DNA of 64,000 nucleotides. It comes from Isoetes taiwanensis. Lineage: Eukaryota; Streptophyta; Lycopodiopsida; Isoetales; Isoetaceae. The translations under genes were made by a program, and so were the position numbers. The notes under the pieces were generated by a model. The model saw only the letters and a list, made by a program, of their open reading frames with translations. It did no database searches and was not told where the DNA came from. The number at the start of each line of letters is the position of its first letter. The stretch's first letter is position 1. Of this stretch, positions 35,760 to 64,000 are shown in pieces. The DNA lies in the NCBI GenBank assembly GCA_021234155.1, contig JAJEKV010000237.1, positions 124,001 through 188,000 on the forward strand, written 5' to 3'.

Positions 35760-35761
35760 GA

Positions 35762-36383: not shown

Positions 36384-37013
36384 CAGTGAAAGGGGTGCAA
36401 TCTCTTCATTGCGTATCATCCATAGATCCAAATGATCCAACAAAGTTAATGTGTAGATCTCTTTCATGTTTTTGTAAGGCATGCATCAATTTTGATTGGC
36501 CTGCTTGTGAGAATGCTGATCATTGTGGCAGGTGGGAGTTGAGAAAACTAGAGCCTACAAACAGGGACAATGTTGAAGAAGATGGGTACGAGGCAGAGGA
36601 CTTGTGGGCAAATGACGTGGACAATGTGGATGAGAGACAGTCAGGTTGGAGATTATTTTGCATCATTCACATCCCCAGACAATTATGAAAGGGTCCCTTA
36701 TTATCTCATCCAGTGCACAGAAGTGAAACATGCCCTCGAAGAAGACACCAAGGATGACTATGGAAATGAATTTTATTGTGGTAATGAAGTTATAGCTGGT
36801 AACTACTTTGAATTGATTCCTGGTTGCCATCAAAAGTACAGGCTTATTCAAGGAAAGAAAGTTCTTGTCCATCCCGAGTCAGTAATTGGGGTGAGATTTC
36901 CATTGGAGCCAGTCAAACATAAGATTAAAGGTACATCTTATGCATATGAACTGACTAACTATTGGCATGAAATGTTGCTGGGAAATTTGCCAGAGATTGT
37001 AGAATCTCTGTAA
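36384..37013 (+). pseudogene. DDE-type transposase copy A, C-terminal part
   Basis: The frame resumes right after the copia LTR with VKGVQSLHCVSSIDPNDP and CRSLSCFCKACINFDWPACE. It matches collinearly the C-terminal part of copy B (VQNWHCVSSISPEDP, PLSCFCSACINFEWQACE). A frameshift near 36640 moves it to a second frame with VGDYFASFTSPDNYERVPYY and a C-terminal block HEMLLGNLPEIVESL. The catalytic N-terminal two thirds are missing; the copia insertion separates it from anything to the left. The Cys and His residues suggest zinc binding. Its neighbours to the right repeat the copy B gene order. Confidence 0.8.
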
Positions 37014-37179
37014 TACGTTAACCTGTTGTTGAAGTAACTTTTCTATGCACTAAGGCATGGACTTGCAAACCGAATGTGTCGAATGTGAACCAGATTAAAA
37101 CACAAACATTAATATATTGTTTATATAGTTCCAAGATGTTATACTTAGTGTAAGTTGTAAAAAACACCATAGCGAAGGT

Positions 37180-37740
37180 CTCAAGATTCAAGACTCAAGA
37201 TTCATCCGGAAAGGTCCTGATTGTGAGATCAACAATGGTCCCATTTCCCAAAAATTGTGAGAAGAGTGTCGGGACATTTGTTTGGAAGTTGGTGAAGTCC
37301 AATGAAGCAAGACATGTGCTTCTCGCTCATTGCCATTTATGATAGAGATTGGTAAAGTATGGTTTGAGGCTATTGAATCTCCAAACCTCACCCTTTTCAA
37401 AGACTTTGTTGATTGCTTTTGCATGCACAACTTCCTGTTTAAGTTGAATGAGAATACTCTCTAGTTACGCTTTAGATAATTGGGATTCCTCATCCCCCTT
37501 GTCATTGCTACTCCCATAGCTTTCGATCCATGCTTCCAACATTGTTAAGTCTCCTCTGTGCATCTGTGTAGAACATCATAAGCAATTGTTAGATTAGGAA
37601 CAAAAGCATGTTTAAGAATAGGAGTACCTCTGAACTCGTGACTGCCTCTCCGTTTGATTTTGTTCAATTGGTTTCCCTGCTCGGTATTGATCTCCTCAAG
37701 AATCGGGTGCGCCAGGTGAGTTTGCATTTGAATTGGGGAT
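37180..37740 (-). pseudogene. Probable C-terminal remnant of copy A protease gene
   Basis: It sits in the same place and orientation as the C-terminal end of the copy B protease gene. Minus-strand frames end TIRTFPDES stop (near 37193) where copy B ends DIVIRPAS stop, and an upstream frame (37545-37740) is coding-like. Sequence similarity is weak, so the assignment rests mainly on position. A microsatellite and a CACTA insertion separate it from the rest of the gene (45548-47701). Confidence 0.35.
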
Positions 37741-37796
37741 ATGGATTGTGATCTTGAACAATACCATCTGCATGAAATGAACACTAAATTGTTAGG

Positions 37797-38350
37797 GTGT
37801 GTATACCACATCAAACCATGCACCATACCATGCCCCACACTATCATATTCACCAGAACGAGCACATCCCACCACACACCACACCATTCACCACACACCCC
37901 ACCCACACCACACCATTCACCACACACCATACACCATAGACCATACACCAACTATCATATTCACAGAACAAGCACATCCCACCACACACCACACCATTCA
38001 CCACACACCCCCCACCACACACCACACCATTCACCACACACCATACACCATAGACCATACACCAACTATCATATTCACGAGCAGAGCACATCCCACCACA
38101 CACCACACTATTCACCACACTCCCCACCACACACCACACCATTCACCACACACCATACACCAAATGATGGAGTGTGGAGCGGTGGTGGAGTGGTGGTGGG
38201 GGTGGTGGTGTGTGGTGGTGGTGGGTGTGGGTGGGGGGGTGGTGGTGGTGTGTGTAGTGGTGTGTGGTGGTATGATGTGGTGTGGTGGAGTGGTGGTAGG
38301 GGTGTGGTGGTGTGGTGTTGTGGATTGTGGTGTGGTGTTGTGGGGTGTGG
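37797..38350. repeat. CCACACACCA / GTGTGGTG microsatellite with switched strands
   Basis: From about 37860 to 38160 the plus strand is an array of accacacaccacaccattc with the interruption accatagaccatacacc repeated. At 38165 it switches to (gtggtgtgg)n until 38350. The two halves are complementary and could fold back. The CACTA insertion splits the GT-rich half, which resumes for about ten bases after 45269. Confidence 0.9.
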
Positions 38351-38827
38351 CACAACAAGAAAAGGGTCATTTAGCGACGTCTATAGCGGCGATGCGGCGG
38401 CGTCTATCGGCGGCGTGCAGTCGGCGTCGCCGCCGAGCGTCGCCCGCGAGCGTCACGCGCGGTGACGCGTCGCATGCGGCGTCGGCGTCGTCGCGAGCGT
38501 CAGACGCGGCGCGTGACTTCGGGCGTGGCTCGGGCGTCGCATGCGGCGTGGCAAGGCGGCGGCGTGGTGTCGAAAAAAAAAAATAAAAAATAAAAAAAAA
38601 AAAATTAAAAAAAAAAAAAAAAAAAAAAGGAAAGAATTTTAATAGTTAGTTACAATATAATATACAAGAGGCAAGAGGCGAGTAGTGGCTATCTTTACGT
38701 GTTCCCTGTTAGGGGAAAACCCTAACAGACCAATATTAGACAATGACATTGACGACCAATATTAGACAATACGACCAATATTAGACAATGACATTGAAAG
38801 TTAACGTGAACTAAGAGTTTATAGCAC

Positions 38828-39170
38828 TTACGAATCTATGTAAAAAGCCTTTTTCGGCCGCGGAACCCAAGTGAGGCGGAATTCGTTTTGCGAGGAAGTT
38901 GCCTTGGCGATCCGCGGAGGCGATGTTTTTCTTGGAATCCTTTGCATCGCGTTCGAAAGTGATCGATTGCAAGGAATACAACATGACAAGTTAAATGTCT
39001 TATTTGAATTGAGCGAATGGCAACAAATAACAAATACCTTGATATCTTCCTTATGGCCGAGATCAAGTGGTTTAGGGACCTTTGACCAATCGCCTCCCAA
39101 TTTTTTGGCATTCGACTTCAATTTTGCAATCACTCTTTGCCTTTTCTATAAATCGATAGATTAACACAAA
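38828..39170 (-). CDS. Short coding-like frame inside the CACTA element
   Basis: A minus-strand frame contains IAKLKSNAKKLGGDWSKVP and KPLDLGHKEDIK before a possible donor, and a further exon-like part with FRLTWVPRPKKAFYIDS. The basic, helical first part could be a remnant of the element's own DNA-binding protein. No firm match. Confidence 0.2.
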
Positions 39171-39354
39171 ACAAAAGAATAAAAATAAGACTATGACTAG
39201 GTCATGTACCTTCTTTTTGGAAGCAGCTCCCCATCATCGAAATGAGCCCCTTCAAAACTGGATTAGTGGGATTAAAAGCTAGAGTTGGCTAACATACGCT
39301 TTAGGGTTATAAGATAGATTTGGCCACCTCTACCTAAGAATTACAAGAAAAGTC

Positions 39355-39632
39355 GACTTGGACCGAAACACAGGTCGTCTCCACTCGTAGTGGAGCCTCA
39401 CAGTGCCCTTGAACAAGCCACTACAATTTTATTTTAAACCTAAAAAATAACAAGTGGCTGTGGACTTGAACCCGGGTACGTGGCCCTCTCCACTCTAGGT
39501 GGAGCCGGCCGTGCCCTTGAACAAGCCACTCCTTAACCTAGGAAAAATATATGATCGTAGTGAAGTGGACTTCGAACCCGGGTACATGGTCCTCCCCACT
39601 CTAGGTGGAGCCGACCCGTGCCCTTGAACAAG
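39355..39632. repeat. Three tandem units containing cttgaacaagccact
   Basis: Three units of about 95 bp share a gaacccgggtac-type stretch, ctccactct.ggtggagcc and gcccttgaacaagccact (near 39410, 39515 and 39625). The inner ctccac..gtggag pairs form small hairpins. The tRNA B-box-like gaacccgggt makes a tRNA-derived origin conceivable, but no cloverleaf fits. Confidence 0.75.
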
Positions 39633-39769
39633 CCACTCCATCAATTTTTTTTAACCTGCTTAAAATTATAAAAATAAAATGCAAGCGCGATCAACTTACC
39701 AAAAGAAGGACGTGTGTAACAAGATCCTGACGGGTCCAAATCGAAATAGAAAGCAACAAAGAGTTAGAA

Positions 39770-40105
39770 GAATAAGAACAACGGAAAAAAAGATCGAAGA
39801 AGAAAAAAAAAAAAAAAAAAAAAAGATGAAGAAATAGTAAAACAAGAAAGAAAAAAAAAAATGAATGAATCAAAGAAGAAGAGAAGGATGGGAGAAAAAA
39901 GAGAAGGGGAAAGAGGAGAAAAAAGAAATTAGGGGAAGAAAGAGAAGAATGGAAGAAATAAGAGAATGAAATGGAAGAAGATAGAAGAATGGAAGAATGG
40001 AAGAGTGAAATAAGGGAAGAATCGAAGAAAGAAATGAGGAAAGAAGGAAAAAGAAGAAGAATGAAGAAACAAGAAGAAGAAAAAGAAATAGAAAAAAAAA
40101 ATTGA
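39770..40105. repeat. Polypurine low-complexity tract
   Basis: More than 300 bases of almost pure A and G on the plus strand, built from gaagaa, ggaaga and A-runs. It could form a triplex or act as a spacer; no coding content. Confidence 0.85.
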
Positions 40106-40319
40106 AATCTACACTAAATCATTCAATCCAAAAAACCATTCAATCCAAAAACCATGATCTACTAACCTTAAAAAGAGTGCTTGCAAGTCGTTCAAGGTAA
40201 ATGAATAGCGAAGATCGCCCAAAATAGTCGATAGAAGGAAGCCTAGGAATGGTCCCGGAAAAGACGGCCCGCGGGACTGTAAAAAACACACGGCGTCGCA
40301 TGCGACGTCGCGACGTCGC

Positions 40320-40440
40320 ATCACGGCGTAATTTGAAATCGTATATACGATTTGAATCGATATATATCGATTTCAAAATCGTATATATGGTTTAACGTCG
40401 CATGCTTAATATCCATGACGATATTTTGTTATAGTGACGT
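40320..40440. repeat. Nested palindromes and a second CACTA-like end
   Basis: aaatcgtatatacgattt and aatcgatatatatcgatt are near-perfect palindromes in a row, flanked by gcatgcgacgtcgcg palindromes. At 40435 the minus strand begins cactataacaaaatatcgtc, which looks like another CACTA terminus, implying that an older element is nested in or duplicated within the larger one. Its mate was not found. Confidence 0.5.
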
Positions 40441-40589
40441 CTAACACTTTTAATTTTTTGGTGCCTTTTTTTTCATCCGATGGTCATGAAAGTTTGTCCT
40501 TATGCTAATTTGGACATTCCCGAGCCATATATGTCATCAAAATCGCATTCGGATTTAACCAATCTTCTATTGCTACTACTTACGAATGT

Positions 40590-43500
40590 TTGAGCCCAGG
40601 GGTGGCATGTTTGAGCCAGGGTGGCGGTTTGATAAGTTCTCCGGGACGGATGTTGGATTTTTTTTGGCCCTTATCGAGCGAGGGCCCTTGAGCGAAGGAT
40701 TCAATGGTGGGATAGGGGGAACCGAGATCCCGGAGTGTGTTCTTTAGCGTCACGGCCCCCGGGAGCCGCCGCCAGAAAGGCTACCTTGGGAAACTTTTTG
40801 GGGCTCGCCTCTTGGGGTTGGACTCTCCCCTCTAATGAGACGGCCTTGCAAGGTCCTCGGCCTTGTTTGACTTGGGCAAGTGTGCCAGCTACTGCCCAAC
40901 AACATTTCGCCCGGACCGTTCTAATGCAAACACTTTGATCTAAACCTTGTCCGAAATTTTGAAAACTGGCTGTATGTTGCCGATGACTTAGGGAAGCCTG
41001 CCGACAAAAATCAGAATTTAATTCCGTACTATATGCATTAATTACTTAATTTATGAATGTCTTTACTCACGCAAAAGTCGCCCTTTACTTCTAATCGCCG
41101 CCACAGAGGGAGTATGGATCCAAACTCCATTCATCGGTTCCCTTGCTTGGCGTTCTCAAGCATCTTATCGGCCAAGTCCCAAGTGCAAAAGACCAAAACC
41201 GGCGGCACCCAAAACGCAAACCCCGCTAGAACACGGCAACTCATGCGGGGGTTTTCGTTTGGAGGCTCTATCCTTGTCGATTCGGGACTAGGACCTTGCG
41301 TGTCTTGACGAGGGGGGTGTTGACACCGGCGGGGACCTAAAAAACCATCCAGGGGCGGCTTGCCCCAAAAGTCCTCTCCAGAAGGCGTCAGCGGGCGACG
41401 GACGGGCAACTTCCCCTCTCCGGAATCATGATTCGGCTCTGCCAATGGACTCGAAACGTCGACATTGCCCTGGGGACCAAGTTTCATGGCCAGAAGACCA
41501 CCCCTTCTCGAGGAAGCGTCAAACTATCTCATGTCCAACACACTCGTAGTCAATTGGCCTAGGAGGTGGCTGTCGAATACTGCAACGTAGGGCGTAAGTG
41601 TTTCTTTCTTTTGCAAAAATGACCGTGCAACTTGGTCTCTAGGGTAATTTCGGCCTCCCGGACGATGTGGCGAAGTCAAATCGCCATTCCGGAGCCTCCG
41701 CAATGTCTGAACGACAAAACACTTTGGTTTCTACACGGCCGCATCGGCGGGACGCCAGCGGTTTGATAAGTTCTCGGGACCGGATGTTGGATTTTTTTGG
41801 ACCTTATCGAGACAGGGCCCTTGAACGAAGGATTCAATGGTCGGATAGGGGAACCGAGATCCGGGAGTGTGGTCTTTAGCGTACGGCCCTCCGGGGGAGC
41901 GCTGCCAGGAAAGGCTGCCTCGGGAAACTTTTTGGGGCTCGCCTCTTGGGGTCCGGACTCTCCCCTCTAATGAGGTGGCCTTGCAAGGTCCTGGCCTTGT
42001 TTGACTTGGGCAAGTGTGCGGCTCTCGGCGCCCAACAACAGGCTGCCCGGACCGTTCTAATGCAAACACTTTGATCTAAACCTCGTCCAGAAATTTTGAA
42101 AACTGGCCTGTATGTTGGCGATGACTTAGGAAGCCTGCTGACAAAAAATCAGAATTTAATTCCGTACTATGCATTAATTACGAATTTATGAATGTCTTGC
42201 CTCTTTTGCAAAAGTCGCCCTTTACTTCTAACCGCCACAACGGGAGGAGTACGTGATCCAAACTCCATTCTCGCCGGTTCCCCTTGCCCAGCGTTCTCAA
42301 GCGCATCTTATCGGCCAAGTCCCAAGTGCAAAGACCAAAACTCGGCACCCAAAATGCAAACCCTGCTAGAACCTGGCAACTCATAGGGTTTACGTTTCGG
42401 AGGCTCTATCCTTGTCAGATTCGACTAGGACCTTGCGCCGTGTCTTGACGTAGAGGGGGTGTTGACACCAGGCAGGGACCCTAAAAAACCATCCGGAAGC
42501 GGCTTGCCCCAAAAGTCCTCTCCGGAAGGCCCTGGCGACGGACGGGCAACTTCCCCTCTCCGGAATCATGATTCGGCTCTGCCAATGGACTCGAAACATC
42601 GACATTGCCCTGGGGACCAAGTTTCATGGCCAGAAGACCACCCCTTCTCAGGGAAGCGTCAAACTATCTCATGTCCAACACACTTCGTAGTCAATTGGCC
42701 TAGGAGGTGGTCAGCCGAATCGCAACATTAAGGGCGTAAGTGTTTTCTTTCTTTTGCAAAATGACCGTGCAACTTGGTCTCTAGGGTAATTCGGCCTCCG
42801 GACGATGTGGCGAAGTCGAATCGCCATTCGGAGCCTCCGCAATGTCCGAACGACAAAACACTTTGGTTTCTACGGTCGGCCGGGCGGCTAGACGCCAGCG
42901 GTTTGATAAGTTCTCGAGGGACGGATGTTGGATTTTTTGGACCTTATCGACGGGGCCCTTGAACGAAGGATTCAGCGGTCGGATAGGGGAACCGAGATCA
43001 GGAGTGTGGTCTTTAGCGCACGGCCCTCCGGGGGGCCGCCAGGAAAGGTGCCTCGGGGAAACTTTTGGGGCTCGCCTCTTGGGGTCCGGACTCTCCCCTC
43101 TAATGAGGTGGCCTTGCAAGGTCCTCGGCCTTGTTTGACTTGGGCAAGTGTGCCCGGCTCGTACGCCCAACAACAGGCTGCCCCGGACCGTTCTAATGCA
43201 AACACTTTGATCTAAACCTCGCCCGAAATTTTGAAAACCGGCCTTGTATGTTTGGCGATGACTTAGGAAGCTCTTGACAAAAAACAAAATTTAATTCCGT
43301 ACTATGCATTAATTACGAATTTATGAATGTCTTGCTCTTTGCAAAAGTCGCCCTTTACTTCTAACCGCCACAACGGGAGGAGTACAGATCCAAACTCCAT
43401 TCGTCGGGTTCCCCTTGCTTCGAGATTCTCATTTGCATCTTATCGGCCAAGTCCCAAGTGCAAAGACCAAAACTCGGCACCCAAAACGCAAAACCCGCTA

Positions 43501-44640
43501 GAACACGGCAACTCATAGGGTTTACATTTCGGAGGCTCTATCCCTGTCGATTCGACTAGGACCTTGCCGTGTCTTGGCGTAGAGGGGTGGTGTTGACGCC
43601 AGAGCACAGACCCTAAAACCACACGAAGCGGCTTGCCCCAAAAGTCCTCTCCGAAGGCCCCAGCGACGGACAGCAACTTCCCCTCTTCGGAATCGTGATT
43701 CGGCTCGCCAATGGACTCCTAATGTCGACATTGTCACGGGGACCAAGTTTCGCGGGCCGAAGACCACCCCTTCTCGAGGAAGCGCCAAACTATCTCATGT
43801 CCAACACACTCGTGAGTCAATTGGCCTAGGAGGTGGTCACGCCGAATCTTTACCGCAACGTAGGGCGTAAGTGTTTCTTTCTTTTGCAAAACCGGACCGC
43901 GGCAACTTGGTCTCTAGGGTAATTTCAGCCTCCGGACGATGTGGCGAAGTCGAATCGCCATTCCCGAGCCTCCGCAATGTCCGAACGACAAAACACTTTG
44001 GTTTCTACATGGTCGACCCATGGGGAGACGCTTCACGGTTTGATAAGTTATCCCGGACGGATGTTGGATTTTTGGACCTTATCGAGCCGGGGCCCTTGAA
44101 CGAAGGGGATTCAACCTGGCCGGATAGGGGAACCGAGATCCCGGAGTGTGGTCTTTAGCGTGCTGACCCTCTCCCGGGAGCCGGGAAAGGTCGCCTCGGG
44201 AAACTTTTTGTGGCTCGCCTCTTGGGGTTCGGACTCTCCCCTCTAATGAGGCGGCCTTGCAAGGTCCCTGGCCTTGTTTGACTTGGGCAAGTGTGCGGCT
44301 CTACCGCCCAACAACAGTCAGCCGGGACCCGTACTAATGCAAACACTTTGATCTAAACCTTGTCCGAAATTTTGAAAACCTGGGTAATGCGTTGGCGATG
44401 ACTTAGGAAGCCCTGCTGACAAAAAATCAGAATTTAATTCCTTACTATGCATTAATTACGAATTTATGAATGTCTTCTTCTTTGCCCAACAACAACAGTC
44501 GCCTAGACTGCTCCAATGCTATCTATTTGATCGGAACTTTATCCCGGAAATTCTAAAAATTTGCCTGTATGCTGGGATGACCTAGGAAGCCAACCGACAA
44601 AAAATCAGAATTTAATTCCATACCATGCATTAATTACGAA
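40590..44640. repeat. Four tandem copies of a 1.14-kb unit
   Basis: The marker gtttgataag occurs at 40627, 41761, 42901 and 44038, giving spacings of 1134, 1140 and 1137. Whole units align, including tgaatgtctt, cggccaagtcccaagtgcaa, cttccccttctccggaatc-like stretches and ggccttgtttgacttgggca. The last unit is incomplete and degenerates by 44640. Many single-base indels distinguish the copies, so apparent frames in each are inconsistent and no protein is called. GC content is above that of the surroundings. Confidence 0.92.
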
Positions 44641-45547
44641 TTTATGAAGCATGAATGCAAAAGAACGCGATAACTAAAAAAAATTCTCGTGATCGAAAAA
44701 GGTGGAATTTTGACAAGCGTTTGCAACGTAACGCTTGGTGGGCGGACATGAGAAAACATTTCACTAGGATATGCGGTGTTGGTGCACGATGAAATAGCTC
44801 CGAAGTCTTCCGAGCTCACATGTCGCCACAAAAGTTCTCTTTACGAAGGCCCCGGCAATGGACGAGCAATTTCCCTCTCCAAAACCATGATTTGGCTCTT
44901 CCAATGGACTCGTAATATCGACATTACCCCCGGGACCAACTTTCATGGCGAAGACCACCCCTTGTTCTCCAAAAGAACAAAGTACACTAGACGCCCGCCA
45001 GACGCCCCGCGGCGATCACGTCGCCGCGACGGCGACGCCACGCCGCGACAAAAGTGACGACGCTGGGATGCGACGCGGGTCGTAGGCGCGGGCGCACTGG
45101 GCGTGATGATCTCGCGTCGCCGATTTGTCGACGTCGCACCACACGCCGCGATAATGACGTGTTCTGCGACGCGGACGCCGCATTGACGCGTCATGGTGAC
45201 GTTATTTGCGACGCCACGCCGCACAAACGCCGCAAGCCCACGCCGCTAAATGTCCATTCTCTTGTTGTGTGGTGTGGTACAAGGTCACAAAATATATCAC
45301 CGAAACAATCAAGTAACCGCTTTGATTGACCAAAAAGGGTACAAGGCTTCTTTAAATCGTAAATCTTTTTCTTAAAAAAAAAAAAAACTTACATAGTCAT
45401 AAAGTATACTATCAAGAGTATACTATTCAAAGATAGTGTCATTTACACATTCCTTATGATAGGAAATGTGAACACAAATGTGAACAAAAGATATATATAA
45501 GCCCTGTTACATAGTTCATCTTGCAAAATCGATACTCGGACTCATGA

Positions 45548-47701
45548 TCACCGAGAAATCGAGGAGGGCCGGGGGCCGACACGTTTTTTCGGATTGGCAT
45601 CACAATGCATGACCAAAGCATCTATTAGAAATTGTCGTCGTGGATGTATGTATTCATGAGAGAACCATTTAGATGTAATCCGGTGACATCCATAAATAAG
45701 GTTAGAAATATTTAAAGGAACATGAGATGCAAGACATACAAGGGAAGGCATACAACTTACTTCCATATCTCTACGAGACAAGAGCTTCAACATATTTGTG
45801 CATAAATCCCATCATATACAACCCACATGATGTTAAATCGGCCGCCGTGGCACCTCTACTTTTTGAATCCGATTAACATTATTTCTCTTCATGAAATCGA
45901 CGCCTCTAGATACTTGACCGATCGATGTGGTTAACATTTGTGTGTGCAGCCTACATATCACTTAAATTTAGCAGACCTAATTAGCGAAGAAAAGCAAAGC
46001 AACAACTTAAAGTATTACATACCCTTTGATTGCTTTCTCGCTCGTCGTGATAACCGTAAGAGGATTCAAGACGGAATTTCGTGCGGTAGGATCTTGAATC
46101 GATGGATGGTGCGAGCGAAAAAAACAGCAAAGACAAAATGGTCATTCTCAAGGATAGGTGCAAGGATATGATGGCATTTAGCTACCACAATCCCCTTCAT
46201 CCCCGATTTCACTATTTCAATGACATTCGGTGATCCTTCAACCGATTCACCCTTTCTTTTTGTCTTTGGTAGCTTCTCTAAACCTTATATAGTTGTAAGC
46301 GGGATAAAAAAGATTTTGCTCTTCCACCGAAAGGCAATGTCTCATACAAGCACCTGGATTAGATTAAGATTAATATTAGAGACAAGGAATAGCAACAAAT
46401 ACGGCTTCGGTTACAACCAGGTTATTACCCCGCCATAAAGATCCACTAAGCGGCTACTCATTTTAGAGTTAGTTGCACATAAAATTGCTATGTCAGATGC
46501 AACCACTTTCATTTCAGCCGGCGGATAGTTCTTGAATGGCGTTGAATTCCATAAGTTTATCCTTGTCATCATTTCTGTTGTCAGATCCAAGATGTTAGTG
46601 TCATATTAACAATTGATCCATGACAATAAAGCATAAATTGATACCTTCCAATCTCTGTTTCAATTGGTTTAGACCGCAAAAGCTAGTAGAATATAATAAG
46701 CTACCAAGTATAAGTAAGTCAATTAGTGTCATATTAACAATTGATCCATGACAATAAAGCATAAATTGATACCTTCCAATCTCTGTTTCCAAATGGTTTA
46801 GACCGCAAAACGAGTAAAATATAATAAGCTACTGAAGTATAAGTAAGTCAATGTAAGCTAGCAATTACCGTTTTGCAGCGGATGTCCCTGCTCTAGTTTT
46901 CACTCTCTTTTTTCCAGCTGTTTTGGCATCAGCTTTGACCATAAATTTAGTCGTTGCCTTGGCTGCAATCTCAAGGCTTCTTCAACATCATCTAGCTCCT
47001 TTGAATCGCCGCAAAGTCTCTCAAGACAAGAAAGTGCTTCATTCTAATGTTTTGAAAGCAAGACAAAAAGAAACACGCACACCGCCAAAGAACAAGCCTT
47101 TTCCTCAACTTGAACTTCAACATCAACTTCGGGATTTGTTTTTCAATGTCGCCACCAATATCTTGATAATTTTATCGTAAACACGCCAACGTAAGTTTCA
47201 AAATACAAAAAAAAAAATAGAAACTCGAAAAGGAGAGAGAATTACTTTTTCGGGCTTTCAGCCTAGTTGCTCCAATAATAGCGGCTTCGGCTTCAGCGGG
47301 TGGGATCTCTTTTTGGAAAACAACCTCTGCTGCAAAATATTGAACATTAGTGAACTCTAACTACAACAGATGCAATCTTAATGTAATCGAGAATGTAATC
47401 ACCCTACCTTCCACATACCCCTCTGTCTCCAAATCCCCAGACCGATTGCTTATGAGTTGTTGCAATTCTCAAAGGTGATGTAGATGTGGATGGACTTCCA
47501 ACATCGATAGCGCGAAATCTTTTGTGCCAGTTCAAAGAATTGGGATGTCCGAGAATGGTAAATGCAACCCCTTCCCAATAACATTCTTCTTTTCACCTAC
47601 AACATGAAATTTGGCTATATTCGAACTTAAGCATAGTGCACGAAACATGAATTGTTTAGTTTACCTGCAGTTTTACTTCTTCCTTTCTTGATACTACCCA
47701 T
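45548..47701 (-). pseudogene. Ulp1-like protease gene, copy A, N-terminal and central part
   Basis: The gene starts MGSIKKGRSKTA at 47701, matching copy B's MGSIKKPEK. A later segment (about 47500) reads GSPSTSTSPL against copy B's STPSTSRSPL. At about 46210-46030, MKGIVVAKCHHILAPILEND then HFVFAVFF aligns with copy B's LQGIVVSKC..MVPVQVEDPAHHVLVIF, retaining the candidate catalytic His. At 45793-45548, TSKWFSHEYIHPRRQFLIDA aligns with copy B's SSTWFDKDFTLGRRNVLIKA. The remainder is interrupted by the CACTA element and microsatellite. Stops and frameshifts abound. Ulp1 proteases remove SUMO-like proteins; activity here is not expected. Confidence 0.65.
46596..46852. repeat. 128-bp tandem duplication
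   Basis: tagtgtcatattaacaattg begins at 46596 and 46724, and the following bases are nearly identical to the end of each unit. The duplicated unit includes a possible small exon (ccaatctctgttt region) and its donor in the copy A protease gene. Confidence 0.9.
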
Positions 47702-48470
47702 GTCTGCATTGACACAATTGGGTGTCAATAAGAAATGTAAACACTTGATTCAGAATCAAGGGGAGATGTAGAGTAGATAGAAGCAAAATTTGAAGAAAAA
47801 ACAATCAGATGCAAATCAAAACAGAACAAATGTTAATTACATGCAAGTAGGTTTTACTACTTGTGCAAACTTTCTCGCGATAATGTAACGACAAAATAGA
47901 AGTACATTAGTGTACATAGCTATCACAATGTAAAGGAAAACCAAATACTAAATTCAAATGCATTTTGAGAACAAAATATTTTATCAATACACCTATCAAA
48001 TACATCATTCAAAGATTGAATGTAAAGGAAAGTCAAATACCAAATTCATATGCATTTACGATCACATGTAAATGCAAAGTCCGATCAATGCAATACACCC
48101 CGTAAAGGAATTCGAGAAAAGCACTTCATGGCACATGTAAATGTAAAGTATGAAGCAAATACATTTCCTCTTTACGGTAAAAGACAAAACCACGCCAAAT
48201 CAAATGTTAATACGATTATGTACATGATGGAAACTAACTACATCTAAGTACACTCAAACTAATTATGTAATCAAAATAGAAATAGATGTACCCTAGGAAG
48301 GGATTCCTAAGCGTGATATCGGAGTCCTCGGACCATGAACAATCATGTACACATGTATTCGTCGTTGAAACCCGAATATAAGACAAAATAGACAATATGT
48401 ATGACCACAAAGTGGAGATATTACCATGGTCGAAGTCAAGGCAATCATTGCAACTGCTGCAAGTATTGCT

Positions 48471-49513
48471 TTATATGTGAGAATGAAGCGCTCCCGCCTT
48501 TTTGTGAGTATGGGAGGCGGGCTGCAGGCCTATCGGGTCTGATCTTTCCAAATGCTTAGTCATCTCCTTTATTCTATTCTCACAGTTGGAATTAACTTCC
48601 AAATCCTTGCTGATTTTTTCAATGGCAGCTTCTAATTCTTGCAAATCAGTCTTTAAACAATCAATGGGAATCATTAGAGCATCTAAGTCGATAACTTGAT
48701 TTCTCCTCCTCTAAATGGGATGCCAAAGCCATTTGCACATCAGTTGGCTTCCCGCTTGCTTTTAAACCTGCCATAATCTTTGAATTGCTCACATATTTTT
48801 GCATCTTTACTCTGCACAAGTCTTGTCAAGAAGCTCTTATCACTCTCATGCTTCAACAGTTCAATTTCCATTGTTTTCCTTTTCTCTTTTAAAGTCTGTA
48901 TTTCATCAAGCATGGAGGCAGAATCTAATGCTCTTGTTTCCCTCCACCTTTTCATCATTTCCAATTGCTACCCCAATTCTACCTGAGGCATACATTTAAT
49001 AGCTTTAACATTGGAAGACTTTACTGTAGCTAATTCTATCATGTCAGATTCTTTTTGAGAGCCTTTTGAATGAAGACTTGCACTTGCTTTCACCTCATCC
49101 CAATCAATGCTTACTCCTTTGTAATGAAGTGCATATGCTCGGGCAAAATACAATGGAATGTGATGATTTGCAATGCCCCTCCTACAAAAAACATGCTCAT
49201 ATACAGAAAAAAAATCTGCCATCCAACCAGGCTTAATCCTGCACTCTTGATAACCCCTAACAGCAGGGGCTTCAGAACCCCAAACATCCTGCACTGTTTG
49301 CACTAGCCCTGGAAACATGCTATCAAAATTGTTGCTCCTAAGCTGCCTGATGCTTACCTTGTCAAACTCGGGCGGCAAGACCTCCCGATCTAAAGAAGAC
49401 CCACTCTTGAGTTTTCGGGCGGCAGTTCTAGTGGGAGACCTTGGCATGGGCTTTAGAGGTTTGTTGCGAGGAGATTTCCTTGGATATGTCTTTGTTCCAA
49501 GCTGCTTCGTCAT
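48471..49513 (-). pseudogene. Coiled-coil protein of the composite unit, copy A
   Basis: An opening basic stretch, MTKQLGTKTYPRKSPRNKPL, is followed by a conserved block with VQDVWGSEAPAVRGYQE and the signature HHIPLYFARAYALHYKGVS then IDWDEVK. Copy B has VWGSKEPTRYGYMDE and YFARAFALHLKGESVDWDDV at the same places. A single in-frame TAG at about 48966 separates this from a long coiled coil (RALDSASMLDEIQTLKEKRK and further heptads). A frameshift precedes another helical segment ending at 48471. Unlike copy B, no cysteine cluster is visible. Function unknown; its constant position beside the other two genes suggests an accessory, perhaps DNA-binding or scaffolding role. Confidence 0.65.
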
Positions 49514-49556
49514 GATCTCTTCCCTGGTGCTTCAGCTCTCTGAAAATGCAAGCTTT

Positions 49557-53822: not shown

Positions 53823-53833
53823 TGTTAGATAGA

Positions 53834-54268: not shown

Positions 54269-54843
54269 TCAACCTAGGTTGGGTAAAAGCACGTTAGGGT
54301 GTCATACATTAGGGGGCAATTCATGTAAACTTTTGAACGGGTTGCTGAATTTTAAATGTACTTATTTCATGTATAAATCTTGTCTTATATATTTAAAAAG
54401 GGGCAAAATTCCCGTTTGTTTGTAATTATGACGAGTAGAGGCCGGCGGTTGATGCGAAACTCCTAGAGGAAATTCCTCCCTCCAATTTCCTCCAGGAAAA
54501 TTCCCTCCAGAAAAATTTCCTTCCAAGAAAATTCCCAAATCGAACCAAGAAAGTAGAACACAATTTGAATTTTTTCGGGAGAGGGAAAACATGCAACTGG
54601 GTGATTTTGAAACCGAATGTGGCGATCGTGAAAACATGCAATCCGGTGATTTTGAAACCGAATGTGGCAAACATCGATGGCATCCGGTGAATTCAAAATT
54701 GTGAAGAGTAAACAAGGGTGGCATGCATTAATTTCGAAAAGTGGGAGAGATGAGAAAGGGAAAAAGAAGATGGCGAGCATGATAGCGAAATTGAAAAGGG
54801 TAGTACATCCTCAAGGTATGTTACCAAAAAAATAAGGACCGGT

Positions 54844-57797
54844 GTGCAAAAATGTTACATTGTTATGAGAAAAGAGAAATTTGAATCTCTCGGCCCTAAT
54901 CAAAGGTACTTATTTGCTTCTAGATTCTTGCAAGATCACAGGCTATTGGAGCTTTTTGAACCTGTGATTGGCTTGCCTTCACAAGCAGTGGTCAAGCATG
55001 CAATTTTAGAAAACCTTAAAGATGGATTGGAAGAGGTAAAATGCTCTAATAGTGGTGATAAATTGGTTGCCAAGCATTCAGTTTTATCAATGGTTGTGGG
55101 GAAAAATGGTGATTTGAAGCAAAAGGGAATTGCTTGCAAGATGCTCAAATGCCATCCCCGAAATCTTTCATATGCTGCTAGCAGAAGAAAGAGAATGGAA
55201 ATTGCTGGTTCAAGCATTTGGGTATTAGCAGGCAGGAAGGCTAGATCTGATTGTTTGGATGAAGAAACCAAGCTAAAAGTCATCCAGTTCTGGCTTAACA
55301 ACACCAAGGTTTCACCAAAGTACAGGGATGTGAGGAAAAAAAGAAGCGAGGCAATCCAGTATCTTGACATTCCTCAGATATTAAAGCTTTTGTCAAAGAA
55401 ACTATTACATTTCAGTTTCTTTTTAGTTTTCATGTACATTTTTATGCACATATGTGAATTCCTCTACCAATCTTAGTTTACTTGCTTTGATGTAGCCTTT
55501 TTGGTCTGTTTTGCTTACTGTATTATACATGTAAATGAGGTTTATAGGATCAACTACTTGCTCTTAGAAGTATTTCATGTATATTATGTGATATATATGT
55601 ACATAGTGTAAGGACGTAAGATTAAATGTGCAGAAGTGAACTCCTTTGCCTTAGTTTACTTGCTTTGATGTAGCCTTTTCGGTCTGTTTTGCTTACTGTA
55701 TTATACATGTAAATGAGGTTTATGGGGTCATCTACTTGCTCTTGGAAGTATTTCATGTATATTATGTGATATATATGTACATAGTGTAAGGATGTATGAG
55801 TAAATGTGCTATAAATTGATACTATACATAATCTACTGTACATATGTATTGAATATGTATAGATTCAATCAAATCTTTTTACATGTACAACTGATATGTA
55901 CTGGTATACATAGTATTTCTTACTTATGTACTGGATATGTAAGGTATTCAATGCAATCTTCTCCAACTTACCTATTTTCTTTTTGCAATGTGCAAATTTT
56001 GTATGAGCACTTTGTGGAGGAGAATCCAGATCTGAGATGTTGGTATTAGAATGTTCGAATACCTGAAACCAAGTTGCATAAGGAAATTGAAGGAGAGAAA
56101 CACTTGCTGTTGTGTCAAGCATGAACAAGCAGAGAATTTCAGAAAAGCTTTCAACTCTATGAGACTGAAGTTTCACATAAATTGCAGTTGCAATTGTGAT
56201 GTATGTGCTGTTGGTACACATGATGGGGTTTGTCAGGCATAAAAGCGTACATTTTGTAATGTTAGCACTCTTTGGAGAGAAATGGTTTGCCAAAAAGAGG
56301 AAAGGGAAGAGTGGCACAATCTGAAGTGCATAAGGGGGGATTGTGAAAAATGTGGTAAACAAAAGATTCCCTTATATCCAAAAGAGACTGATCAGAATAA
56401 TGAAGATGATGCTAAATGGCAGGCTTACTGTTATATGGACGAGAAGTCAAGGAAGGGCACTTCTAGAGGTCTAAGATTGGTGGAGAAGCAAATATATGCT
56501 CCTTTCATGTTATCTGCCATGTTTGATCACATGAAAAAGTTTGTGCATCACAACTTTGCAGCTCATTGGCAGAGCAAGGAATTTAGGAGAAGCATTCAGA
56601 GTCTAAGAGATGATTCTGTGATATCAGTAGTAGACTTTGCAGAAAATTACACATTGCAGCCCTTCAAAGAAGTGCAGTCTGAACATTGGAATGCCACTAT
56701 TTTGGTACACATCACTCTCTTCAAGGTAAATGGTAAGTTGCAGAAGACTGTTCACTTATATGTTTCTGATGATAGAAGTCATGACACACATTTTGTACAG
56801 CATGCATTTCAACTTCATCTTCAGTGGTTGAAAGGGAATGGAGGATCTCACATGCGGTATTATCTCGTGTGGTCAGATGGTTGTGCTGCTCAGTTCAAAT
56901 CCAGAAGATCATTCTACTTCAGATGCAGGTACCATTGTCAGCATGGCATTCGTGTACAATGGAATTTCTTCGGATCAGGACATGGGAAGGGGGAACATGA
57001 TGGAGAAGCTGCCAAGGCCAAGCAACTCTTGGCCAGTGAGCAAAGAAGAGAGCATGGAATTAAAATAAAGGGTGCTCATGATGCCTGTGTTGTTTTGAGA
57101 AACAAGAAATCTCAAGTTCGTAGAGTGTGTTGGGAAGTGAAGGAGGCTGAGATTGACAGGACAAAGCCATTTGATGTGCAACCCCTTCCTGGTGTCCAAA
57201 ACTGGCACTGTGTATCTTCCATAAGTCCGGAGGACCCAACCTTACTGATGGTTAGACCACTATCTTGTTTTTGCAGTGCCTGCATAAACTTTGAATGGCA
57301 GGCATGTGAGTCTATTCAACACTGTGGAAAGTGGACATTGAAGAAGCTAGTCCCATGTGCACATGCTGAAGGTACAGAATTGGAATCAGAAACTGCAATG
57401 TTTGCAAATGAGGTAGAGGAGTTACATGATGTGATACAGTTTGGTGATAATTTTGCTTCTTTTGCTCTTCCTGGTAATGAGGAAGATGTGCCATATTATG
57501 TTCTTGCTTGCACTAGAGAAAAGCATGGTCATTGATGCTTACAAGAATGAGCATCATGCAGGTGACACAGTCATATCAGCTTACTATTATCTGAAATTGC
57601 CAAGTTGCCATAACAAATATAAGCTGTTGGATGATAGAGAAGTATTGGTACCAGTAGAGTCTATTATTGGAGCTAAATTTCCCATGAAGAAGATAAATCA
57701 CAGGGTTAAAGGTGCTAGTGCAGCTTTTGCATTGTCTGATGATGTGCATGAGATGTTGCTAGGACGTCTTTCCGAAATGGTGGATGCCTTGGATTAG
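54844..57797 (+). pseudogene. DDE/RNase-H-like transposase-type protein, copy B
   Basis: The 5' exon (54844 to about 55390) encodes a basic helical domain (LGPNQRYLFASRFLQDHRLL, RKARSDCLDEETKLKVIQFW). After a repeat-filled intron the frame continues from about 55990 with a Cys-rich region (NTCCCVKHEQ, CSCNCDVC, CIRGDCEKCGKQ). The RNase-H core follows: D in VVDFAENYTLQP, then VSDDRSHDTHFV, D in WSDGCAAQFKSRRSF, and acidic residues in HGKGEHDGEAAKAK. This is the DFAENY..SDG..HGKG family seen in uncharacterised, probably transposon-derived eukaryotic proteins (from memory). A C-terminal Cys/His segment follows. Defects: a TAA at 56240-56242 and a frameshift near 57527. Transposase activity is inferred from the D-D-E-like spacing. 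Confidence 0.72.
55474..55815. repeat. Two 175-bp tandem copies in the transposase intron
   Basis: tagtttacttgctttgatgt then agccttttt/cggtctgttt begins at about 55475 and again at 55652. The units stay over 90 per cent alike through tatatatgtacatagtgtaagga. Confidence 0.9.
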
Positions 57798-58009: not shown

Positions 58010-61000
58010 TTAAGAAGCAGGCCTAATCACTATGTCATTTGGAACATAATATCTCAGTACTATTGCATCATGCAAGCCTTTCTTCCAACGGTTTTGAGGA
58101 TTTACATCTGCTACAACAGTAGCACTTGCTGTTGGACATTCTCTGGCTATTGGAAGGCCGGTCCACCCTATTGGCTGATCATCTACTTCTGCAAAGGATG
58201 GTCTCCCCCAAGGATTATGTAGTAAACCTTGGACTGCAAGTAGATTTAGCAAATTGCTTCGAGTATCTGAATCACTGATTCTCTCAACCATTTCCCAAAG
58301 CTCAGGAAGCATGGTATTCGACCTTGGATTAGTCCCCCGGCCAGCATATTGGGAACTTAGATTTGTTTCTTCTATATCAGTTGGTTGAAGATCTACTTCA
58401 GCTGGTTGAAGACTTTGACATTTGTTTTGTAGATCATTACAATGCATACAAAATTATTAGCATATCATGTGAAGGCTTAACTGTATTACCTAAGTTATGT
58501 ACATACAGCCTGTATTGCAAAAGCTCTACAACATACAACATCTAAGCATAATTGTATTACCTAAGTTAGATACATACACGAAGATGTGCCCATGTCCTCG
58601 ACTTGTTTACTATCTGATGTACCAGCACACTCATCTTGTACCCGACCTTCTACAAACTTCGAATGTTTACTATCAGATGTACCAGCACAATCATCATCTT
58701 CACTAGATTCTTCTATTACTGTGAATCTCTTCACTGTGATGCTAGACTTCTTATTTAGCAAGCAACCTCTATTGCAAAAACTCCATAAACTATCAATGTC
58801 TTCACCATATTGAGATTTTATGCATTGAACTACTGTGTCATTGTATGCACGAGAAGTATCAAATTGATGCTCTTGGACATAAGTGGTAAAGTCATTTGCA
58901 TTCTTCAAGCCTACAAACCAGTCAAATAGCCAACACAAATCTTTGTCTTCGCCAGTTAGCCTGGGATGTCATACTGGTATGCAGCAAGAGCAACCCTCAT
59001 TGAAGATACATTTGAAAGGAAGGTCAGTAATCATAACACATTTATTTCCGTATTTTGGATACTTGAGGAGAGGAATATCCAAAGGGAAAAGAAATATGTA
59101 TGTCCCATCATTGACCTCTAAGAAGAGGGTCCAACATCTATTGCCACCATAAATGAATTTAAATCTTGGTATGCCTTGCTCATACAACTTGTCTACAATG
59201 ACTGTCAGAACATCCAAGGGAAAATCTGACCAAACAGCCAAATCCCAATGGTTGGAACACCAGTACAACAATGATTTCGACAATGGACGACAAAAGAAGA
59301 CTCCATCAGGTAATTGGATTGGCACTTGAGTGCCATTATAGTCACTGGGTGCTGATTGATAATAGTAACCCAAAATGCCTTGGCACTCTTCTGCCCAGTG
59401 ACAACTTGTTTTGTCTCATCTCTTCTTCTCAAACCATGTTCAATCATGGCTTTTATTAATACATTTCTTCTGCCAAGTGTAAAATCCTTGTCGAACCAGG
59501 TTGATGAAAACTGCAACAAACACAAGAATTAAGATCCGCTACATTAAAACATCCCAAAGGATTTATGTGAAATATAAGAACAACTCACCATGCTTTTAGA
59601 ATTCACTTGGGCATCCACAAAAGCTTGCATAAAGGCCATCACATAAAGACCACAGCTTACACTATCTGGTTGTTGTGGAACCTCTGGAATAGTTTCCTTC
59701 TTCACTGCATTCTTCACATATAATTCAACTCTACGTGAGCTAGAGTTGGTTAGATATGTGATGACATCCTTATGAAGCCTGCACATACAAATGAGAACAT
59801 GCAACTAAGATTTAAGCAAGCACGAGTACATATACTGAAAGAACATGCTCACATATTTAGGAGTTTGCTGTCCACTGTTATACCAGTCATGGAGTTCAAC
59901 ACAATAATTGCAAGAGAAGCCATTGAGGTGGTACTGCAATTTTTTGCAGACTCTAAAACAAAAATCACCAAAACATGATGGGCAGGGTCCTCAACTTGAA
60001 CTGGAACCATAATATACTAGCATTTACTAACAACAATGCCTTGTAGCCCTTTCTCAATCGCACTCTGCCGACCGTCCCCATCTTGTTAGCATCCGGGGCT
60101 AATCTTTTTAAATCTTTGCCCGACAAGTCAAAAGTTTTTTCTGAAGGAAGAAAAGAAGACATCTCGCCATTTGGATGTCAATGTGCTGCTCACATACCTT
60201 CCGATGTCTAAATGTCTGTTAGACATGTGCCTATCTTTAAACAATGTCTCCACACAATATTTCGTGATCTTAATCAGAGGTTCAGCTTGGAACGGATAGA
60301 ATAGAACCATTGTATGAAGGTTATCCATGTCACTGCAAACCAAGCATCAATGGTAACTAGCATAAAACACATATTTACTAATCCAATTACACTTACAGTT
60401 GCTCAACTGATGTCTGGCTTCTAGTTCTCTTAGCTGGCCGCGACACATTTGTATCTTTTCTTTTTCTTGACTCTTTCACGTTCACACCACTATCTGTATC
60501 TGTTCTATCCTCAGATTCCTCCTTCTCTTGCTTCACCACAACCACCTGCTTCATATCTGTAGCCACATTCTCCACTAAAATTTCTTCAGTACTAGTTGTA
60601 TATGTTCCTGTCTTATGTGATCGATTGTAGTTCCAACTAAGGCCATAGATCCACTAGTTTCCTCTGTTTCTGCGAATAATAAAATGTATGAACATGCAAT
60701 AAATAAATGCAATAAGTAGTTTTTGACTTACCATTTGAAAACTTGACATTTCAAGTTGACTTGATGATGTGGCATTGGCTTTAGAATTGGTATCTTACGC
60801 ACCTTGTCTACAATCGCTTTTTTTTCTTGAGTGTCGAAGACCTCTACAATAATATCTTTTTTCTTTAGAGTGTCAGAGACGGCTTCATTGTTCTCCTCGC
60901 TCGCTGGTTCCAGTACTACAAGATAATTCATTGTCAACAGCAGCATAAACATCAAGAAAATGTAGAAATTAAACTAATATGGACACATACCTGTGTTGCC

Positions 61001-61409
61001 ACATTCAGCCCTTTGCTTCAGGAGCTCAATTTGTTGTGCATATGAAGCTACAATTGTAGCTTTGCTTGTGACAACTGTATTTATTATTAAAATAATGAGC
61101 TCAATTTGCTTCCTTATAAAATCCAGCAAATTCATTTAAAACTAATTACTTACTTGATGTTCCTTTTCCTCCTCTCTCATGCTCTGCTACAAATGTGTTC
61201 AATGTGTTCAGAGGTGACCTAGATGTGGACGGGGTTGACTTATCATGCTTCCCTCCATAATAATCATCTACACAACTTGAAAAATCAAGTGTCTTTGGGA
61301 GGATCTACTCGTTTCTTGCGGCATCGCATACAAGGTGAAATTGAAATACATATGAAGAGACCATAACCACATATCACATACCTTTCTCTGGCTTCTTTAT
61401 ACTACCCAT
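58010..61409 (-). pseudogene. Ulp1-like protease joined to FCP1/NIF-like domain, copy B
   Basis: It begins MGSIKKPEK (61409) and continues through short exons with acidic and Ser/Thr-rich linkers, including KRKDTNVSRPAKRTRSQT, a likely nuclear signal. The protease part holds candidate catalytic His (EDPAHHVLVIF, about 59980), an Asn where Asp is usual (IIVLNSMTG), and the Gln/Cys motif QQPDSVSCGLYVMAFMQAF (about 59640). After LGRRNVLIKAMIEHG the frame goes on as an FCP1/NIF phosphatase-like domain: GVFFCRPLSKSLLYWCSNHW, DLAVWSDFPLD, IYGGNRC and VMITDLPFKCIFNEG. A TGA (58969-58971) follows, then LCWLFDWFVGL and a tail to 58010. The DxDx nucleophile motif of HAD enzymes is not visible. Further stops occur around 60130-60010. 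Confidence 0.68.
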
Positions 61410-62073
61410 GTCACCTGCAAGAATGAAAGCATTACCAATAGTAACTAGATGACTGAAAGAATATTAGTGCCCACTATAAACCAAAACCAGAAAAGCAATG
61501 TACAATCCAATTCCAAATGTACTCCATGTATCTCAGATTGCGTAACTATGTACGCTTTTATGTACCCACATCCAAATGTAGAAAGCTTCCTAGAAAAAAA
61601 AAGAATTCATAAATGCATTCCATGTAGTTGTATTAGATATATTAGATATATGTATTTGGAGCCAAGTGTAGAAAAGCTTCTGGAAAATTGTAATTGCATT
61701 AAAATGTATCATAGAGTACAGCAGGTATCAAAATGTCCCCCCAGTAGAAGACCACATGTTATACAAATGTACACACAGGCAGTTACCTACTTATCCTATT
61801 TTCTTAGTACATAAAAGTAACTCCTCAATAATATTTGGCAACACTGTACATCATGCACATTAATAATATGCATGTATTAACATGATGTTTACACCAGCCT
61901 AGAAAAGCAAAACGATCCAACCCTACAAATCTTCACTTCAACCTACATTTTAAAACCCAAATGTAATTAATATACTACAGAACAATTAATGCACAACCAA
62001 CGCACAACTTCTAACTAATATCCATCTACCAATCTTACACCTGAACTAATCAAGAAAGACATCAGTGTTGTCC

Positions 62074-62414
62074 CGTACGCGTACCGTACCGTACGTACTG
62101 TACGTATTTTTTAAAAAATACGTTTTTTTCAGCCATACGTACCTTACGTACGTTTGGAGTATTTTTTAAAAATAAAAAAACAATGGTTAAATAAAACAAA
62201 ACAGTGAAATAAAACATAAAACTGATGTAGGGGAAGTTGGTTAGCATGTTAGTTTGCTATCTAGGAGGCTCAGGTTCAATTCCTGGTAAGTGCAAGTTTA
62301 TTGTTTTGTGAAAAACAAGTAGTATTTAAAAAAAAAAACGTCAGGAGTATTTTTTAAAAATACATACGTACGTACAAGTACGGTACGGAATGGATCCTTT
62401 TCAAAAAATACGCG
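62074..62414. mobile_element. MITE rich in GTAC motifs with tRNA-like interior
   Basis: The ends consist of cgtaccgtaccgtacgtac..tattttttaaaaaatacg and an inverted counterpart (agtattttttaaaaatacat then acgtacgtac..gtacggtacgg). It lies between the protease and coiled-coil genes. Confidence 0.7.
62225..62305 (+). other. tRNA-derived (SINE-like) segment inside the MITE
   Basis: gaagttggttagcatgttag resembles a pol III A box and D-arm; caggttcaattcctg is a perfect T-arm with a B-box match (GGTTCAATTCC). The acceptor stem does not close, so this is a tRNA pseudogene or SINE head rather than a working tRNA. Confidence 0.6.
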
Positions 62415-62426
62415 TAAAGAAATTGA

Positions 62427-63806
62427 TTATGCATGCTTACCTTTTCCAATCAGCCCCAATGCACGAGGTTGATTCACATCCCATGTGCAGCCTGGTACCG
62501 CGCAGTTGTTCCTTGTGCTAGCAAGATAGGAGATATATGATAGGCAGTAAGGATATCTGCAAGATGCCAATACCACTGGGGAGGAACCAAAACACTGCTC
62601 GCAATTTGTGCAGGACTGAAAATCAGCATTTGGTTGCTCTGCAACTGAAACCAAAGAAAGAGGAGGAGGCTGCAAGCTAAGGACCGACGAGTGATCTAAG
62701 AACTTCCTCAACTCCAAAATCTTTGTGTCCCCCTCCTCAATTGCTTTCTTTTTTGAAGACCTTAAATTAAGTTCAGAATCTAGCTACCTCAACTCAGATG
62801 CTTTTGCTTCCACTTCCTTGCTAAGCTCAGCTAGATCCCGCCCCCGTTTGCTCTTCTGTGCAATTGCATCCTCCACCTTCCATTTTATGTGCTCAAACTT
62901 CATAGCACTACCGTCACTTTCATCCATCTGCTGTTGAAATTCCTGCAACTCTGACATTAGATTCAAGTAATTAGTCTCGGCCTCATGGACTAGCTTAGAA
63001 TATACTGCCCTTTCCCCTTCCCTACGCTTCAAAGTCTCATATAGCTGCAGTCTTGTCTCCTGTAAATTCTGCATCTCCTTACATATGCTTTCCTTTAAAG
63101 AGGATCTGCTCTCAAGAAATACATTCAAACTGTCCAGATCTTCTTTTTTGTAGAAATTATCATCGGACTTGTGGCCCTTGGCATTGCTCGACTTAACTGT
63201 TACAACTTCAGTCAAAACCTCGGATTCTTTGACCTTGCTTTTAGCTGTGGCTGTTTTTTTCACATCATCCCAATCAACTGATTCACCTTTTAAGTGTAAG
63301 GCAAATGCTCGAGCAAAATACAATGAAACATAGTGATTCTGTACATCTTTCCTACCGAATGCAAACTCGTACTACTTGAAAAATTATGCCTGATCTTCCA
63401 ACTTCACCAGCTCATCCATGTACCCGTACCTGGTAGGTTCCTTAGAGCCCCAAACTTCTGTCACTAAAGAGTTGTATTCTGCAAATTTTTCCTTGAATTT
63501 CATATTTGCCAGATCCCTTGCAGAAAATACTGTGTCCTCATTTCGGTTCTCCTTGCTACAGCCAGGACTTCCAGACTTCAAATGTGTCCCTGCTTTGGAA
63601 GCCCTGGGAGATTTTCGGACTGATGCAGAGTGTCTTTGCCATTGTCTATACCTGCAATGCAACAACAAATATCTTTTAATTGTCCTAAAGGTGCAACAAT
63701 CTGAGCTTGCACATGTAAGCAAAAACCTAAAGTAATAAATTAAAAGCAGAAAGAAGAAAACTAGGGAAGAAAACGATTGTACCTTTGATTTGTTGAGAAT
63801 GACCAA
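62427..63806 (-). pseudogene. Coiled-coil protein with C-terminal cysteine cluster, copy B
   Basis: Basic N-terminus (SVRKSPRASKAGTHLKSG), a conserved block with VWGSKEPTRYGYMDE, then the signature SLYFARAFALHLKGESVDWD. A long coiled coil follows (about 63130-62790: ESICKEMQNLQETRLQLYET and more). The C-terminus carries closely spaced cysteines, SCTNCEQCFGSSPVVLASC, then CAVPGCTWDVNQP, resembling a RING or treble-clef zinc site. In-frame stops lie at 63384-63386 (TAA), about 63374 (TAG) and 62784-62786 (TAG), yet one frame holds throughout. The true start is uncertain because the 5' exon beyond 63660 is short. Function unknown; paired with the protease and transposase genes as in copy A. Confidence 0.65.
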
Positions 63807-63829
63807 GCGACTTCGGAAGAGCGTGCTTT

Positions 63830-64000
63830 AGTCGCTTGTAAGAGATCAAGGTGCTGGATCGTAGGGTAAAAGCAAAGGGATCAAAGGACCAAAGAAACAA
63901 GAACGGGGAAGAAAGAATTGGAGGGAATTTTCCACTGCCTATTTTCGGTCGAAAAAAAAACTAAAAGTCACATGTATTAAAATGACCCAATATTTTATCA
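63830..64000. other. Window edge, possible outer end of copy B
   Basis: Contains ggagggaattttccac (63921 onward), which is roughly the inverse of ggaaaattccctccag at 54496-54511 on the other side of copy B. The two could be parts of terminal inverted repeats, or merely similar leader sequences. Confidence 0.25.

Follow-up and report, generated by a model that had tools for sequence, protein, structure and literature searches.

What kind of genetic unit is represented by the two collinear gene sets found in a 64,000-nucleotide stretch of the Isoetes taiwanensis genome (assembly GCA_021234155.1, contig JAJEKV010000237.1, positions 124,001 to 188,000; hereafter the window)? In each set, a plus-strand transposase-like gene faces two minus-strand parts: an Ulp1-like protease and a protein with a coiled coil and a RING-like C-terminus. 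The two sets (units 1 and 2) are here considered, with rather more confidence than doubt, to be old, inactivated insertions of one large (~9.5 kb) DNA transposon family carrying ubiquitin/SUMO-editing cargo. The collinear homology, the presence of the protease domain PF02902 in both units, the signature of prior selection, an inward-pointing end motif and the precedent of other Ulp1-bearing transposons all fit this view. There is good support for the association of the genes, for its age and for its having been under selection, while the mobility of the unit is what these features suggest.

Within the window (to which alone all E-values between the units refer), open reading frames, a protein self-comparison and tblastn place unit 1 at 36.39-49.77 kb and unit 2 at 54.50-63.93 kb, with a common gene order and orientation. 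An earlier sequence-only reading had described a transposase on the plus strand followed by a protease and a coiled-coil gene on the minus strand, occurring twice in the same order and with matching motifs amid considerable divergence; both descriptions were borne out. Stops or apparent frameshifts are present in all six gene copies, and unit 1 is only a remnant, from which the transposase core and the C-terminal third of the protease are gone. Furthermore, its transposase and protease are separated by a ~7-kb block of tandem repeats and low-complexity sequence (37812..44963, unstranded) comprising CACCACA-type tandem repeats, a purine-rich stretch and a tandem array with a period of ~1135 bp (40624-44963), in which adjacent copies are ~88% alike and the G+C fraction (~0.5) lies above that of the rest of the window.

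The age of the association can be read from the codon positions. Between the transposase and coiled-coil stretches of the two units, positions 1 and 2 are 59-73% identical and position 3 only 35-45%, with synonymous divergence of ~2 or saturated and non-synonymous divergence (dN) of 0.37-0.61. An ungapped 145-bp transposase match, which was not picked by protein alignment, shows 80%, 79% and 46% identity at the three positions; a protease stretch of 40 codons (20% identity at position 3) is less trustworthy, as it spans a frameshift. Since silent similarity has largely been lost while non-synonymous change was constrained, the set must have gone on working in separate lineages. This pattern supports the view that the genes stayed together, subject to purifying selection, in two lineages that had long been apart, and that both copies decayed thereafter. 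The copies thus parted while functional, and a recent segmental duplication is therefore excluded.

The plus-strand gene is known mostly from unit 2, where an N-terminal exon (54754..55395, end approximate; an open frame with no Pfam match above cut-off) precedes a main exon (56036..57532) delimited by reading frame and tblastn, to which the putative catalytic region is assigned. The main exon contains DFAENY (within 56627-56650), EVQSEHWN (56669-56692), WSDG (from 56870), HGKGEHDGE (56981-57007) and a Cys cluster (57260-57334); VVDFAENY, WSDG and HGKGEHDGE could be the sources of three acidic residues. Resembling motifs presumably exist in large animal transposase-like proteins, possibly of the Sola2 kind. 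The copy is interrupted by a TAA at 56240 and seems to be frameshifted twice, near 56040 and near 57530; the second shift leads into a frameshifted C-terminus (57533..57797, plus strand) with 45% identity to 36753-37010. In unit 1, nucleotide match and tblastn recover only ~200 C-terminal residues (36392..37010, plus strand; frameshift near 36640), the larger N-terminal part with the putative catalytic core having been lost. This remnant matches 57191-57791 (plus strand) in three pieces, with identities of 52% (E 8e-29), 60% over 30 amino acids and 45% (E 1e-24).

Conceptual translations of both protease copies pass the 20.7-bit cut-off of Peptidase_C48 (PF02902), with 40.8 bits for unit 2 and 26.0 bits for the conceptual domain of unit 1. 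The unit 2 gene (58010..61414, minus strand), which may also be the 3' half of a larger gene, is frameshifted and extends from an exon beginning MGSIKK (ATG at 61409) to a stop at 58010; the unit 1 remnant (45551..47703, minus strand) has several frameshifts and retains the MGSIKK exon at the same place (ATG at 47701, minus strand). Across the units, the protease pieces match weakly (two pieces, E 3e-7), and nothing in the window search matches the C-terminal third in unit 1. Unit 2 retains a His motif (HHVLVIF, 59960-59980) and a Cys motif (QQPDSVSCG, 59649-59675). No DUF1985 match was listed for those exons of the protease N-terminus that were scanned, each separately.

The third part comprises a basic Ser/Pro-rich N-terminus, a conserved domain with YFARA(F/Y)ALH, a charged stretch and a Cys/His-rich C-terminus; by eye, the charged stretch looks like a coiled coil. 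In unit 2, tblastn and reading frames place it at 62430..63642 (minus strand), with YFARAFALH at 63294-63320 and the RING-like region at 62487-62612; the frame is interrupted by stops at 63384, 63372 and 62784 and, close to its start, apparently shifted. The unit 1 copy (48292..49513, minus strand; ATG at 49513) carries YFARAYALH at 49124-49150 and the RING-like region at 48339-48461; its frame meets a stop shortly below 48971 and is also shifted in places. The minus-strand stretches 48971-49531 and 63168-63617 are 41% identical across 163 alignment columns (E 9e-28), the former also matches 62787-63371 (34%, E 5e-24), and the RING-like parts share 25% identity (E 2e-5). The Cys/His end reads CSSC ... 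CGHTYCLFC ... CVHDC in unit 1, with RING-like spacing across two frame changes, and CTNCEQC ... CRYPYC ... CAVPGC in a single frame in unit 2. The frameshifted unit 1 reading reaches zf-RING_UBOX at E 0.064 (13.7 bits against a cut-off of 25.2) and zf-C3HC4 at E 1.7, and Pfam lists no RING match for the unit 2 end; the term 'RING-like' is therefore used instead of RING. The best Pfam match of the unit 1 coiled-coil/RING query, GAUT_1 (E 0.0013, below cut-off), falls on the coiled-coil part.

Whether these minus-strand parts constitute two genes or one is evenly balanced. The sequence-only reading had spoken of a three-gene unit; three protein parts are indeed present in both copies, while the splice signals of unit 2 make a two-gene unit, in which the coiled-coil-RING and Ulp1 parts are exons of one gene, about equally likely. 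There, a donor at the end of the RING-like frame (AAG|GTAAGC, with 62441 as the last exon base) ranks in the top 0.15% of all 6458 GT sites in the window. Joining it to the acceptor of the MGSIKK exon (first base 61414) preserves the reading frame (phase 1) and yields G-D-M-G-S. An acceptor lies directly ahead of the MGSIKK ATG in both units, and the five further donors scored within these genes rank in the top 0.05% to 6.2%. Nevertheless, in unit 1 the donor scores weakly (top 7.6%) and its phase, as read, does not fit, and the score matrix behind all these ranks was taken from general knowledge. Moreover, the ATG of the coiled-coil protein also stands just behind an acceptor-like site, so the MGSIKK exon may equally be preceded by an intron in a 5' untranslated region. 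A single minus-strand gene is compatible with the transposon reading. The unit 2 region between the RING-like and MGSIKK exons (61950-62380) is rich in GTACGT and AAAAAATAC words and is, by eye, perhaps a small nested insertion.

Unit 2 is bounded by an exact 15-bp inverted (sub)terminal match, GGAAAATTCCCTCCA at 54495..54509 on the plus strand and again at 63919..63933 on the minus strand, identified by alignment controls and pattern scan. Among 1836 pairs of random stretches, three share at least 15 bases and 17 reach the alignment score of this pair. A pattern scan also recovers the motif at the right end of unit 1 as GGAAATCCCTCC (49755..49766, minus strand), with the spacer shorter by 2 bases. 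Beyond it, near 49.83 kb, unit 1 gives way to a copia reverse-transcriptase reading that, by eye, is broken off there, which is compatible with an insertion of unit 1 into that element, whose other half was not found.

Several results weigh against the transposon reading, and the ends supply a number of them. The pattern GGAAA-N(0-3)-TCCCTCC has three sites in the 64 kb on both strands, which are three of the four expected ends and point inward, as against a mean of 0.05 and a maximum of 1 in 40 windows simulated under a Markov model; however, it was written only after the alignments had been seen. Two of 100 window shuffles held at least two matches to the 15-mer at no more than 2 mismatches, and the similarity of the unit 1 right end to the two unit 2 ends is unremarkable (245 and 1809 of the 1836 control pairs reach at least the same score). 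Outward of the motif, the three ends have no significant similarity (control fractions 0.70, 0.09 and 0.74), and being unlike one another there, they establish no terminal repeat. No target-site duplication was recognised by eye, the left end of unit 1 being lost. The motif may therefore be subterminal, or it may be a promoter element common to the genes, as it sits upstream of gene starts; the unit 2 pair lies upstream of the starts of two convergent transcription units. Thus, of the earlier proposal of a mobile DNA transposon with co-maintained accessory genes, the co-maintenance stands, and gene order, selection and the end motif favour the mobile part, for which neither a terminal repeat nor a target-site duplication was recognised.

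The identity of the transposase adds further counter-evidence. Neither the presumed transposase nor the YFARA domain has a Pfam or NCBIfam match above cut-off; the weak Pfam matches of the former are unrelated and at E 0.13 or worse (for example, PF09286 at E 0.15), while its short C-terminal frame gives PF13759 at E 0.029, below cut-off. A PDB sequence search returned only three ankyrin-repeat chains (E 1.1-1.2), which are not meaningful. Single-sequence AlphaFold2 models have a mean pLDDT (predicted local distance difference test score) of 32.7 for the transposase exon and 34.9 for the core. In the first, strands and helices follow an order that an RNase H fold would allow; as this order does not recur in the second, no weight is placed on either model. 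The main exon, as a protein query, found no relative in viral or prokaryotic contig collections; four DNA motif patterns returned 13 loci from the same collections, all attributable to chance (best tblastn E 0.46). The earlier assignment as a DDE transposase accordingly retains its plausible acidic motifs, while neither a domain match above cut-off nor a usable model backs it. As for the protease, both copies have His and Cys, but the position of the Asp in the SENP triad is occupied by Asn (VLNSM, VLNPLT). In unit 2, this residue (59888-59902) was located by alignment to LDSL of SENP7, to which the protease is similar by sequence only (E 0.02); in unit 1, it was read by eye. The Asn may be ancestral, forming a papain-like Cys-His-Asn set, or may reflect parallel G-to-A decay.

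Apart from transposition, two collinear units would also result if a block comprising a copia and host genes had in ancient times been duplicated in tandem (segmentally), with both copies dying later. Decayed copia retrotransposons on the minus strand (32979-35770 and 49831-53864, both seemingly 3'-truncated by eye) do lie to the left of each unit in the same orientation, and they have diverged from each other about as far as the units have (~51-56% alike in two stretches of pol, 44% in gag). TGGTATCAGAGC words, which we take to be copia primer sites, are present in the two elements at 35748 and 53834. An 81-amino-acid minus-strand frame at 31894-32136, beside the broken end of the first copia, shows a weak Cullin match below cut-off (E 0.008). 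However, the copia pair has the same codon pattern as the unit genes, with silent sites largely lost; divergence of this selected kind would not be seen in dead passengers, and the two copias thus derive from separate active lineages. Their placement also differs, as the copia adjoins the transposase C-terminus in unit 1 but lies upstream of the transposase start in unit 2. Furthermore, among the best 60 matches of the nucleotide self-comparison, the two that join the units both fall within coding sequence. The simple segmental duplication that the sequence-only reading had named as its refuting case is thus spoken against by the type of divergence and by the location of these matches, and the ancient form is improbable. 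An equally small probability attaches to a host gene cluster, perhaps of domesticated transposon origin, that underwent an old duplication and has decayed to pseudogenes here: retained order and purifying selection would be expected of it just as well and the transposase family is unproved, but both copies are broken inside one repeat-rich 64-kb window and unit 2 is flanked by the end motif in inverted orientation.

The remainder of the window includes a fragment of ATP-synt_C (PF00137, 52.4 bits) on the plus strand at 11600-12028, which reads like a V-ATPase proteolipid subunit and is likely a host gene. Minus-strand exons at 18911-21140, of which two pieces were tested and have no Pfam match above cut-off, are taken by us, by eye, to encode a RAD21/REC8-type cohesin subunit. 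A long imperfect inverted repeat at 28531-29084 (82% identity to its own reverse complement over 574 columns) is possibly a foldback or small inverted-repeat element. At gathering scores, Rfam gave no match in the window.

On the preferred reading of two transposon insertions, the plus-strand gene would encode the transposase, while the RING-like coiled-coil protein and the Ulp1-type protease would converge on it from the other strand. The transposase would cut at ends marked by, or lying near, the GGAAAA-TCCCTCC motif and would reinsert the element. The protease and the RING-like protein might act on SUMO or ubiquitin conjugates of host silencing or repair factors, or of the transposase itself; by analogy with VANC of the Arabidopsis VANDAL elements, such editing could let the element escape silencing. 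A more specific version, in which a non-MULE plant transposon family uses a single protein combining a coiled coil, a RING-type ligase and a His-Asn-Cys Ulp1-type protease for anti-silencing or transposase control, is tentative and rather unlikely.

Several known systems resemble the units in part. Kolobok, KolobokP and relatives are DDD/E transposons whose accessory proteins differ between lineages and include nucleases, a helicase or KolX (PMC9587614), and Sola2 is described as having a long transposase, capacity for Fanzor1 cargo, short terminal inverted repeats and AT-rich 4-bp target-site duplications (PMC3627910). By description only, the units are like the Kolobok group in pairing a transposase with accessory proteins, although those named there are not Ulp1, and like Sola2 in their long transposase and room for cargo genes; a literature search for Ulp1-bearing plant Sola DNA transposons returned no paper. 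Ginger1 carries Ulp1 or OTU on its transposase, for which its authors suggest a link to the ubiquitin pathway and post-transposition repair (PMC2836005). In carrying such a domain, this DNA transposon resembles the units; however, its Ulp1 forms the C-terminus of an integrase-like transposase, whereas here the protease lies on the opposite strand and Pfam lists no integrase domain.

In architecture, the units resemble the VANDAL and Kaonashi Mutator-like elements (MULEs), which are known from Arabidopsis and other angiosperms. VANDAL21 of Arabidopsis carries VANA, VANB and VANC, of which VANA is the transposase and VANC a sequence-specific anti-silencing protein that binds short motifs in non-coding regions of elements of its own family and strips off silencing marks (PMC5735166, PMC10398659). 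In its Kaonashi (KIU) relatives, VANC bears an Ulp1 domain, and the role of Ulp1 in plant MULEs is described as unknown (PMC13317346). The MULE and Ginger1 literature agrees with the earlier statement that Ulp1-like proteases ride on several transposons (PMC2836005, PMC13317346). Tandem repeats occur once in the unit 2 transposase intron and twice in non-coding parts of unit 1; as candidate VANC-like targets, they were dropped, for repeats occur throughout the window and four tested stretches hold no common word of 9-12 bases. Within the literature searched, by title and start of abstract, the combination of a transposase, an Ulp1 protease and a RING-like coiled-coil protein was not found described.

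Like the VANDAL and Kaonashi MULEs, the units have the outline of large plant DNA transposons with a transposase and further genes, one of them Ulp1-bearing (there in KIU members, here through PF02902). They differ in the RING-like coiled-coil protein and in the transposase: Pfam lists no Mutator transposase domain on the conceptual core up to E 10, a listing whose filters remove most matches above ~0.1. Therefore, despite the shared architecture, the units are not placed among the VANDAL elements. If they do represent a second kind of plant transposon, Ulp1 and RING-like cargo under selection would argue that SUMO/ubiquitin editing is a recurring survival route, and the family would offer an independent system for testing such cargo of plant elements alongside VANDAL and Kaonashi.

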